From: Negativibacillus massiliensis
Lineage (GTDB): Bacteria; Bacillota; Clostridia; Oscillospirales; Ruminococcaceae
Length of the DNA: 64,000 nt
Reading direction: 5' to 3'
NCBI RefSeq assembly: GCF_900148495.1
Contig: NZ_FTRU01000007.1
Location: 124,001 to 188,000 of the forward strand
Under the pieces are notes generated by a model. It did no database searches. It was not told the origin of the DNA and saw only the letters and a program-made list of their open reading frames with translations. A program made the position numbers and the translations under genes. The first letter of the stretch is position 1; each line of letters starts with the position of its first letter. This document shows, piece after piece, positions 43,815 through 46,722 of this stretch.

Positions 43815-43843
43815 TTGACAGAACAAAGCTGAATTGCTATACT
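43815..43843 (+). promoter_or_regulatory. Strong SigA promoter of the ABC-F gene
   Basis: TTGACA and TATACT are 17 bases apart, with an extended TGC before the -10. The predicted leader is about 310 bases. Confidence 0.85.
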
Positions 43844-43880
43844 GGCAAAGGATTTTAATTTTAAGATTTGAGGTGAAAAT

Positions 43881-43901
43881 ATGCGCAAATTTTCCTGCTA
43901 A
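43881..43901 (+). CDS. Leader peptide MRKFSC (attenuator uORF)
   Basis: A six-codon open frame with ATG and an AGGTGA site directly upstream. Codons 4-6 contain TTTCCTGCT, which can pair with AGCAGGAAA at 43984-43992. This is the expected layout of a short sensing peptide in antibiotic-controlled leaders. Confidence 0.65.
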   Translation: MRKFSC

Positions 43902-43982
43902 TCAAGTAAGGGTAAAATGCAGATTACGAAAAGGCGGACAGAGATTCTTTAAAATTTCTGTGCCCAAATTGCGTTTGCCCGC

Positions 43983-44137
43983 CAGCAGGAAACAAAGCTT
44001 GTGCATATTTTCAGAATATAGAAAAAGGTGTCGGGATTTTATGTTCACAGACGGATGTTCTGCGGGATAAGATTTCTGTTTGACCTTTTGTTCCCTTCTG
44101 AAAAAGCGGCAGCAGGATTTCCTGCTGCCATTTTTGT
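43983..44137 (+). promoter_or_regulatory. Transcription attenuator of the ABC-F gene
   Basis: A terminator hairpin (GGCAGCAGG pairing with CCTGCTGCC at 44108-44129, then T5) lies 13 bases before the ABC-F ribosome binding site. Upstream, CAGCAGGAAA at 43983-43992 is the exact complement of TTTCCTGCTG (44118-44127) in the terminator's 3' arm. The same element is complementary to TTTCCTGCT inside the leader peptide codons. Three mutually exclusive pairings are therefore possible, as in known ribosome-mediated attenuators. Confidence 0.75.
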
Positions 44138-44163
44138 TGCCTGAGTTTTGGGAGGGAAACGCC

Positions 44164-45660
44164 ATGTCAATCATTTTGTTATCGAATGTTAGTTTTTGTT
44201 ATGAAGGAAGTTATGAGCCAGTTTTTGAAAATCTCTCGGCAAACCTGGACACCGACTGGCATCTGGGTTTGACCGGACGTAATGGACGGGGAAAAACCAC
44301 TCTTCTGCGCCTGATGCTTGGCTCCCAGCAGCATCCTTATGGACTGACCGGGTTTGGAGGAAGCATTGGAGCAAAGGTCTCTTTTGTTTATTTTCCACTT
44401 CCGGTCAAACACCCGGAGTGGCTTGCAATGGAAGTGATGGAAGAGCTTTGTTCAGGATGTCCGGAATGGAAAATCCGGCGGGAGCTTTCTCTTCTGGGTG
44501 TGGAGGAGGACGCTTTGTGGCGGCCATTTGAAACGCTTTCCGGAGGAGAAAAAACGAAGCTGCAGCTGGCCGCACTGTTTTTGCAGGAGGGCTCCTTTCC
44601 ACTCATTGATGAGCCGACCAATCACCTTGATATTGAATCAAGAAAGATCGTTTCGGAGTATTTAAGGCGACAGAAGGGATTTTTGCTGGTATCGCACGAC
44701 CGAGCCTTTCTGGACGGATGTGTCGATCATATCCTTTCCATCGGACGCAATGATATTGAGGTTAGAAAAGGAGATTTCAGCGGCTGGTACCACGATTATC
44801 AGACCCGTATTCAGTCTGAGCGGGAGCAGAACGAAAAGCTCAAAAAGGAAATCAGCCGACTGCATGAAGCAGCAAAGCGCACCGCCGAATGGTCGGACCG
44901 GGTGGAGGCGACCAAGATAGGAGAAGGTCCCTGTGACCGGGGATATATTGGACACAAAGCTGCCAAGATGATGAAGCGCTCCAAGTCGATCGAGATGAGG
45001 AAACTGGATGCTGCACAGGAAAAATCCAAATTGCTCAAAAACGTGGAGAATGTCGGAAAGTTAAAGATTCAGCCGGAGAAGCATTTTGCAAAGAAACTTG
45101 TGGAGGTCGGAGAACTGTCTGTCTGTTTTGGTGGAGAACCTTTGTTTTCTCCGGTGAGCTTTTCAGTTGGAACAGGAGAAAAGGTTTGTTTACAGGGCAA
45201 AAACGGCTGCGGAAAAACAAGCCTTTTGAAATTGATTGCTGGAGAAAAACTTGATTATCAGGGAACACTTCGGATTGCTTCGGGACTTACCTTTTCTGTA
45301 GTCTCACAGGACACCTCAGGACTGCAGGGCAGTTTACAGGAGGAACTTTTGAAAAGCGGAGTGGACCAGAGCTTGTGTATGACCATCCTGCGCAATCTTG
45401 GGTTTGAGCGAACCCAGTTTGAGATTCCGCTCGAGCAGTACAGCATGGGTCAGAAGAAAAAGGTGTTGATTGCAAAAAGTCTGTGTCAGAAGGCGCACCT
45501 GTACCTCTGGGATGAGCCGCTTAACTACATCGATATTTTTTCCAGAATGCAGATTGAAAAACTGCTTTTGGAGCAGGAAGCGGCAATGCTGTTTGTCGAG
45601 CACGATGCAGCATTCTGCGAAAATATTGCGGATAAGATTGTAAGCATCCAAAGAATTTAA
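44164..45660 (+). CDS. ABC-F protein, Lsa/Vga-like
   Basis: A 498-residue soluble protein with two ATPase domains and no membrane segments. It probably protects the ribosome from lincosamides, streptogramin A or pleuromutilins, as Lsa/Vga proteins do. The first site has GRNGRGKTT and LSGGEKTKLQLA, the second GKNGCGKTS and YSMGQKKKVLIA. The linker between them is charged. ATG 44164 has GGGAGGG 7 bases upstream. The attenuator in its leader supports antibiotic-induced expression; the actual drug is not known. Confidence 0.85.
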   Translation: MSIILLSNVSFCYEGSYEPVFENLSANLDTDWHLGLTGRNGRGKTTLLRLMLGSQQHPYGLTGFGGSIGAKVSFVYFPLPVKHPEWLAMEVMEELCSGCPEWKIRRELSLLGVEEDALWRPFETLSGGEKTKLQLAALFLQEGSFPLIDEPTNHLDIESRKIVSEYLRRQKGFLLVSHDRAFLDGCVDHILSIGRNDIEVRKGDFSGWYHDYQTRIQSEREQNEKLKKEISRLHEAAKRTAEWSDRVEATKIGEGPCDRGYIGHKAAKMMKRSKSIEMRKLDAAQEKSKLLKNVENVGKLKIQPEKHFAKKLVEVGELSVCFGGEPLFSPVSFSVGTGEKVCLQGKNGCGKTSLLKLIAGEKLDYQGTLRIASGLTFSVVSQDTSGLQGSLQEELLKSGVDQSLCMTILRNLGFERTQFEIPLEQYSMGQKKKVLIAKSLCQKAHLYLWDEPLNYIDIFSRMQIEKLLLEQEAAMLFVEHDAAFCENIADKIVSIQRI

Positions 45661-45804: not shown

Positions 45805-46722
45805 ATGAGTGAAAATCAAAACAACCTGCGGCAGATGTCCGCTGCGGATATTCCACAGACTTTGCCAAGCTTTCCCAGTGAAGATGGTTCGGGAAGTGCG
45901 GTAGTAGTGCCGGATGACATTCCGCAGACCCTGCCAAGTTTCCCGAGTGTTGACGGCTCGGGAAATCCAATCCCAGATACTCCACAGACGCTCCCAAGTT
46001 TTCCGCAGCCGATTCCGCCTTCCAACAATACGCCAAACCAGCCAACAACACGCTGCTGCCGGGTAAGGTTTTTCCATGCAGCTGCACAGGCAGGAGCAGT
46101 CAATGTGAATGTCGGTTCCCAGAGGGTAGCTACCAACCTTGCTTTCGGTAATTTTTCTACATATTACTGCTTTGGGCAGGGCTTCCGCACCGTTACCGTT
46201 TTAAATGCAAGTTCGAACCGAACGGTGCTTCTGCGAAAAACAGTTCCGATGCAGGCGGGAGAGACGATTACTTTTGTGCTGCTTAACAATGCATCGACCG
46301 GAACACTGGAACTAAGCCGAATTGATGATACCTCCTGCTCCGGACAGATGGGTGGGTTTGCCTGCCTGCGGATGGCAAATTTCCTGCTGGGAAGTACCGC
46401 ATTGGATATGATGACCTCGGATGGCAGAGTGGTATTCTCGGATGTCCGTTATAAAGAGAATACTCTTTCCAGACGTCTGCGCCCGGGAAGCTACAGCTTT
46501 TATGTGGTCAACACACCACTGCGGATTGAACCTCGCATTGAAGATGTGGAACTCGATGACAGCGATTACCGCGTCAGCGGACGTTATCTGCCGGGCTACG
46601 GGGAACTCAGTCCAGTTATTTCCTTTTCCCTGCAGGCGCGAAGAGGAGTTATGTATACCGCTTATATTATCGGGCAGGCAAATACGGACGAAATTCAGGT
46701 CGTCATTGCTGCAAACAGTTAG
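45805..46722 (+). CDS. DUF4397 domain protein with N-terminal repeats
   Basis: A 305-residue protein. The N-terminal 75 residues hold three copies of a PQTLPSFP repeat with acidic-glycine spacers (SEDGSG, SVDGSG). After a proline-rich linker and a CCRVRFFHAAA start, two beta-rich halves follow that match DUF4397. It has no signal peptide, unlike many DUF4397 proteins. ATG 45805 follows AAAGGTGG. Spore or surface localisation is possible but not shown. Confidence 0.7.
   Translation: MSENQNNLRQMSAADIPQTLPSFPSEDGSGSAVVVPDDIPQTLPSFPSVDGSGNPIPDTPQTLPSFPQPIPPSNNTPNQPTTRCCRVRFFHAAAQAGAVNVNVGSQRVATNLAFGNFSTYYCFGQGFRTVTVLNASSNRTVLLRKTVPMQAGETITFVLLNNASTGTLELSRIDDTSCSGQMGGFACLRMANFLLGSTALDMMTSDGRVVFSDVRYKENTLSRRLRPGSYSFYVVNTPLRIEPRIEDVELDDSDYRVSGRYLPGYGELSPVISFSLQARRGVMYTAYIIGQANTDEIQVVIAANS

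Follow-up and report, generated by a model that had tools for sequence, protein, structure and literature searches.

A candidate ribosome-sensing transcription attenuator upstream of Lsa-like ABC-F genes in Clostridia

The locus analyzed here lies in a 64,000-nucleotide stretch of Negativibacillus massiliensis DNA (contig NZ_FTRU01000007.1, positions 124,001 to 188,000), hereafter the window, in which a short upstream open reading frame (uORF) and an intrinsic terminator precede a gene of the ABC-F family (Table 1). A preliminary description of this DNA had noted a strong promoter, a leader peptide MRKFSC with its own ribosome site, a terminator just before the ABC-F gene and an intervening element complementary over 10 bases to the 3′ side of the terminator and over nine bases to the uORF codons, and all four features were confirmed in the sequence. 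Transcription would start near 43850, and the terminator (44108-44138) reads GGCAGCAGG-ATTT-CCTGCTGCC followed by ATTTTTGTT.

Table 1. Positions of the leader features and of the ABC-F gene in the window
Feature	Position	Strand	Basis or role
Sigma-A-type promoter, TTGACA-17-TATACT	43815-43843	+	11/12 consensus matches
Shine-Dalgarno (SD) of uORF, GAGGTG	43870-43875	+	Sequence; SD kept in relatives
uORF MRKFSC-stop (ATG-CGC-AAA-TTT-TCC-TGC-TAA)	43881-43901	+	M[RIKY]xFSC[KR]-stop class conserved in relatives
Element 1, TTTCCTGCT, within uORF	43891-43899	+	Putative partner of element 2 (anti-antiterminator)
Element 2, CAGCAGGAAA	43983-43992	+	Putative partners: element 1 in the off state, element 4 in the on state
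Intrinsic terminator hairpin	44108-44129	+	Conserved in relatives
Terminator 5′ arm, element 3	44108-44116	+	
Terminator loop	44117-44120	+	
Terminator 3′ arm	44121-44129	+	
T-rich tail of terminator	44130-44138	+	
Element 4, TTTCCTGCTG	44118-44127	+	Terminator loop and 3′ arm; putative antiterminator partner of element 2
SD of ABC-F gene, GGGAGGG	44150-44156	+	
Lsa-like (ARE3-like) ribosomal-protection ABC-F gene	44164-45660	+	498 aa

The highest-scoring model for the 498-aa product is the NCBIfam Lsa family NF000167, and its score of 659.8 bits does not reach the curated cut-off of 750 bits, so we refer to the product as Lsa-like. The product does exceed the cut-off of the broader ribosomal-protection model NF000355 (442 versus 380), and among solved proteins LsaA (7nhk) is the closest to it, aligning over the full length with E = 2e-127, the next best hit being at 4e-53. 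By analogy with these relatives, the protein probably gives resistance to lincosamides and pleuromutilins, a drug spectrum that we infer from the family. The protein encoded further downstream (45805-46722) starts with three PQTLPSFP repeats, and similar repeats, read on the other strand, are seemingly also encoded beside the gene in a relative of the same genus.

The sequence of the leader is organized around three mutually related segments. Element 1 duplicates the terminator 3′ arm; nine bases of element 2 are complementary to it, and element 4 is exactly complementary to element 2. In the window the helix between elements 1 and 2 (1:2) exceeds the nine pairs of the preliminary description and includes the uORF start codon, with AAAAUAUGCGCAA paired to UUGUGCAUAUUUU and then UUUCCUGCU to AGCAGGAAA for about 23 pairs in total, and in the fold the pairing of the element 2 strand with the start-codon region extends to about 44012. 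The leader is more stable than 100/100 shuffled versions (z = -4.9), and a shuffled uORF region had 9 nt in common with the terminator arm in 2/5,000 cases, the uORF slice in this comparison being off by one base, which leaves the 9-mer unaffected.

To place this arrangement in a wider context, Lsa-like genes were gathered from relatives and their upstream regions were read in gene orientation. Most of these regions contain an SD-preceded uORF of the form M-[RIKY]-x-[FILV]-S-C-(K/R) at about -180 to -340, and the 3′ arm of the downstream terminator there repeats the TTTCYTGC of the uORF; about 75 upstream regions combine an M[RIKY]xFSC-class uORF with an element 2 and a terminator that match it. 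Scanning 84,980 species genomes for an MR[K/N]FSC uORF pattern returned 68 matches, one of them too close to a contig end to judge. An Lsa-like ABC-F gene stands 180-490 nt downstream of the uORF in 50 of the 67 informative matches, which span Oscillospiraceae, Desulfosporosinus, Desulfitobacteriaceae, Emergencia, Sinanaerobacter, Eubacterium, Caproiciproducens and others. The remaining 17 lack such a gene there and are spread over many phyla, a number near the roughly 15 matches expected by chance according to our own arithmetic from the length of the pattern. A covariance model made from 46 leaders yielded a single match in each matching genome, including one copy in the genome of the window, and the ABC-F gene lies immediately 3′ of the leader in all 58 of the 58 loci examined. 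The presence of a candidate attenuator before Lsa-like ABC-F genes across Clostridia is thus well supported by these comparisons. In three relatives (L118, L123 and L194) the uORF lies unusually far from the gene, at about 335-490 nt, which suggests inserted sequence or one more hairpin in the interval that separates element 2 from the gene.

Across 46 distinct leaders, 96.9% of the cells of the 9-bp core of the 1:2 helix are paired. In a separate comparison, the wobble base of the Ser codon, which is synonymous for the peptide, covaries with element 2 with no mismatches (T-A 28, C-G 16, T-G 16, C-A 0). Element 2 had been picked by its pairing with element 1 in the conservation and Ser-wobble comparisons, so that the evidence for the 1:2 helix in those two comparisons is partly circular. 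Double-sided changes, present in one or more of the 46 sequences, affect seven of the nine core pairs; column shuffles give 1.6 such pairs, and slid versions of the helix 0-3. When mapped on the protein tree, the 1:2 states change 7-11 times, with none of the independent pairs in the wrong direction; since only about 5-6 pairs fall on well-supported branches, the tree-aware test of covariation is without reach to significance (p no better than 0.06).

Evidence for the helix between elements 2 and 4 (2:4) comes from a non-circular test, in which the terminator was chosen blind to elements 1 and 2. Selecting element 4 automatically through its resemblance to element 1 had led to incorrect hairpins at several loci, and that procedure was abandoned. 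With its own terminator, element 2 forms an uninterrupted helix of 10.6 bp on average, versus 8.58 bp (sd 0.20) with permuted terminators (0/5,000). The bases of the terminator loop match their own element 2 at 2.60 of 4 positions, versus 1.71 when permuted (0/5,000), and this match constitutes direct evidence for an antiterminator because the terminator stem puts no constraint on the loop. It also suggests that the loop, as the first part to emerge, offers element 2 a foothold from which the antiterminator wins. A subgroup of relatives with the very short uORFs MKR, MRR or MK (L100, L101, L104, L106 and L107, and also L098 and L103) carries a different terminator, of the GGAACTGTTTGGCAGCAAACGGTTCC type; by eye, element 2 in the same subgroup, TGCTGCCAAA, pairs with the terminator 5′ arm and loop, TTTGGCAGCA. 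On its sequence, this subgroup apparently has a second antiterminator geometry, not one of loop plus 3′ arm.

We propose, with a probability of about 0.84, that this leader senses ribosomes and thereby attenuates transcription of the Lsa-like antibiotic-resistance ABC-F gene that follows it. In drug-free cells, ribosomes would leave the tiny uORF, and element 1 together with the start codon would fold back onto element 2; with element 2 occupied, the terminator would form directly before the ABC-F gene. A drug blocking the peptidyl transferase center (PTC), presumably a pleuromutilin, lincosamide or streptogramin A, would arrest the ribosome on the uORF start codon or immediately beyond it. 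The footprint of the arrested ribosome, to about +16, would cover element 1 and free element 2, which would then capture the emerging terminator loop and 3′ arm before the stem forms, allowing RNA polymerase to read through. Within this proposal, we infer the start-codon arrest, the kinetic switch, the drug class and the resistance function of the protein.

Folding predictions with growing 3′ ends are consistent with such a switch. In the window, free RNA always gives the terminator, and masking -15 to +16 around the uORF AUG yields the antiterminator at every length short of the final bases of the arm, after which the two structures are evenly balanced. In 71 loci folded with half of the 3′ arm made, the 2:4 helix beats the terminator stem (3:4) in 3 when the RNA is free, and the antiterminator is dominant in 62 with a ribosome on the AUG, in 59 with codon 3 in the P site and in 46 with the ribosome at the stop codon, compared with just 4-5 for control masks of equal size placed elsewhere. 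Once the full 3′ arm is available, equilibrium folding in the presence of the ribosome predicts the antiterminator in 20/71 loci and the terminator in most; because the terminator is regained with a complete arm, the switch would have to be kinetic or aided by pausing. Pausing of RNA polymerase has been shown for vmlR (PMC9226507) and, by analogy, could help here.

Where the ribosome would stop can be gauged from the natural variation in uORF length. Several relatives carry uORFs of only two or three codons (MR, MK, MF, MRK, MRN and MRR, as in ATG-AGA-TAA, ATG-AAA-TAA, ATG-TTC-TAA, ATG-CGC-AAC-TAA and ATG-CGT-AAG-TGA), some with a stop at the position of the Phe codon, and these retain the RNA pairing at a nearly unchanged distance from the AUG, with a helix that runs from the start codon to about +20. 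Pairing between elements 1 and 2 is likewise intact in the two-codon uORFs of L134 and L071 (MR), L131 (MK) and L008 (MF), each one codon short of the three found in the vmlR and cplR uORFs. The pairing kept in short uORFs implies that the ending of the peptide is dispensable. In vmlR, lincomycin and retapamulin act on initiating ribosomes at the uORF, and a ribosome with the AUG in its P site gives a measured toeprint at +16 (PMC9226507); by analogy, a ribosome halted during or immediately after initiation would be the most economical trigger.

The preliminary description had joined a three-way pairing model to stalling specifically on MRKFSC. The pairing model is supported: the complementary segments are kept in relatives and bear compensatory changes, and RNA folding of the alternative pairs predicts a passage from terminator to antiterminator only with a ribosome over the uORF start. 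Stalling on MRKFSC in particular would not be needed, given the pairing kept by uORFs of two or three codons. The same observation bears on the possibility that MRKFSC is a true drug-dependent arrest peptide, with F-S-C read by ribosome and drug as in ErmCL-type leaders. Although FSC is the commonest ending and a length of six or seven codons is widely kept, endings in relatives vary (ISC, LSC, VSC, TSC, FSR, ISR, NPC, LFC and VTC), and the covarying Ser base is silent in the peptide. Arrest peptides of the ErmCL type need a conserved nascent-peptide motif, whereas here uORFs of two and three codons keep the architecture, and we regard an arrest peptide as unlikely. On the sequence comparisons, FSC is conserved mainly as RNA, as a copy of the terminator arm, and the peptide is probably not the sensor. 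We lean, by a small margin of confidence, towards a Clostridia-wide element in which the uORF serves only to park a start-codon-arrested ribosome and its later codons act as an RNA decoy of the terminator 3′ arm; if the later codons are kept as such a decoy, what looks like conservation of a leader peptide would really be conservation of RNA, a conclusion we hold as slightly favored.

A lower probability attaches to control mainly by translation attenuation, in which a stall on the uORF would expose the ABC-F SD and the hairpin would be incidental. Both layers are used by cplR and vmlR (PMC10201436, PMC9226507), and in the window the gene SD is predicted to be 0.04-0.05 unpaired in free read-through RNA and 0.27-0.32 unpaired with a ribosome; yet over 71 relatives its accessibility is unchanged (0.32 and 0.32), and what relatives conserve are the terminator and the antiterminator pairing, which makes this reading quite improbable. 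A layer sequestering the gene SD thus appears in the fold of the window and is not general across the 71 loci folded, and it may be an addition in the genus of the window. In the predicted fold of the free read-through RNA, a CCC-rich segment ahead of the terminator (about 44087-44100) sequesters the ABC-F SD.

Sensing of starvation for Cys (or Ser/Phe) by an amino-acid attenuator is very improbable: a Cys codon is frequent near the end of the uORF and cysS uORFs with Cys codons are known elsewhere (PMC8632094), but there is a single Cys codon, it is missing from FSR, ISR and the two- and three-codon uORFs, and the downstream gene always encodes an ABC-F ribosomal-protection protein and never an amino-acid function. 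Least credible is that the gene is constitutive, the terminator unrelated and the complementarities accidental, because, although the 1:2 duplex of the window, considered by itself, does not stand out from those of shuffled spacers (p = 0.08), both complementarities of element 2 occur together in only 8/5,000 dinucleotide-shuffled spacers, and class-wide conservation and covariation contradict it.

The proposed attenuator suggests that Clostridia of the gut and the environment widely possess an intrinsic, inducible means of protecting their ribosomes from PTC-targeting drugs. It would also constitute an RNA family absent from Rfam, with a uORF consensus usable to find such genes, and its natural series of 2- to 7-codon uORFs bears on whether ABC-F leaders respond to the peptide itself or simply to ribosome arrest on the start codon. 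Neither the window nor any of the leaders from 11 loci contains a match reaching the gathering score of an Rfam 15 family; a CsrC match below threshold corresponds to the terminator hairpin. No paper on the MRNFSC/MRKFSC/MINFSC uORF class was found in the open-access literature, and no matching motif was seen in passages of two Breaker-lab ncRNA surveys.

Features shared with uORF-controlled ARE-ABCF attenuators comprise a uORF with an SD, an anti-antiterminator helix, a ribosomal-protection ABC-F gene and, computationally, an intrinsic terminator with a mutually exclusive antiterminator. The closest parallel is the vmlR leader of Bacillus subtilis, in which retapamulin and lincomycin stall initiating ribosomes and induction needs initiation at the uORF MIN (PMC9226507). 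Both leaders have a short uORF in an anti-antiterminator hairpin, an antiterminator, an intrinsic terminator and an ARE-ABCF gene. In contrast to vmlR, the uORF here usually has 6-7 codons, which copy the terminator 3′ arm; the antiterminator pairs with the loop and 3′ arm of the terminator; no conserved hairpin sequestering the gene SD was found across relatives; and the gene is Lsa-like (ARE3-like) rather than ARE2. The cplR leader of Clostridioides difficile, also from Clostridia, resembles the present leader in having a uORF in a 5′ hairpin and a terminator before the gene, and differs in its three-codon uORF MR[I/M], a terminator that itself hides the gene SD, an ARE1-type gene and another sequence (PMC10201436). 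The Enterococcus LsaA leader precedes a gene of the same protein family and has another uORF consensus, MAGN; the published search for it used an 80% identity cut-off to LsaA (PMC10201436), which leaves more distant clostridial Lsa-like proteins outside it. The lmo0919/VgaL leader of Listeria monocytogenes shares ribosome-dependent read-through before an ARE-ABCF gene, in Listeria of ARE1 type, a likeness drawn from its description as cited in PMC10201436. The leader thus appears to be an attenuator of the vmlR/cplR/lmo0919 kind, known in its type of mechanism and as yet unreported in this widespread form, whose putative design feature is a uORF that is a copy of the terminator arm with which it would compete.
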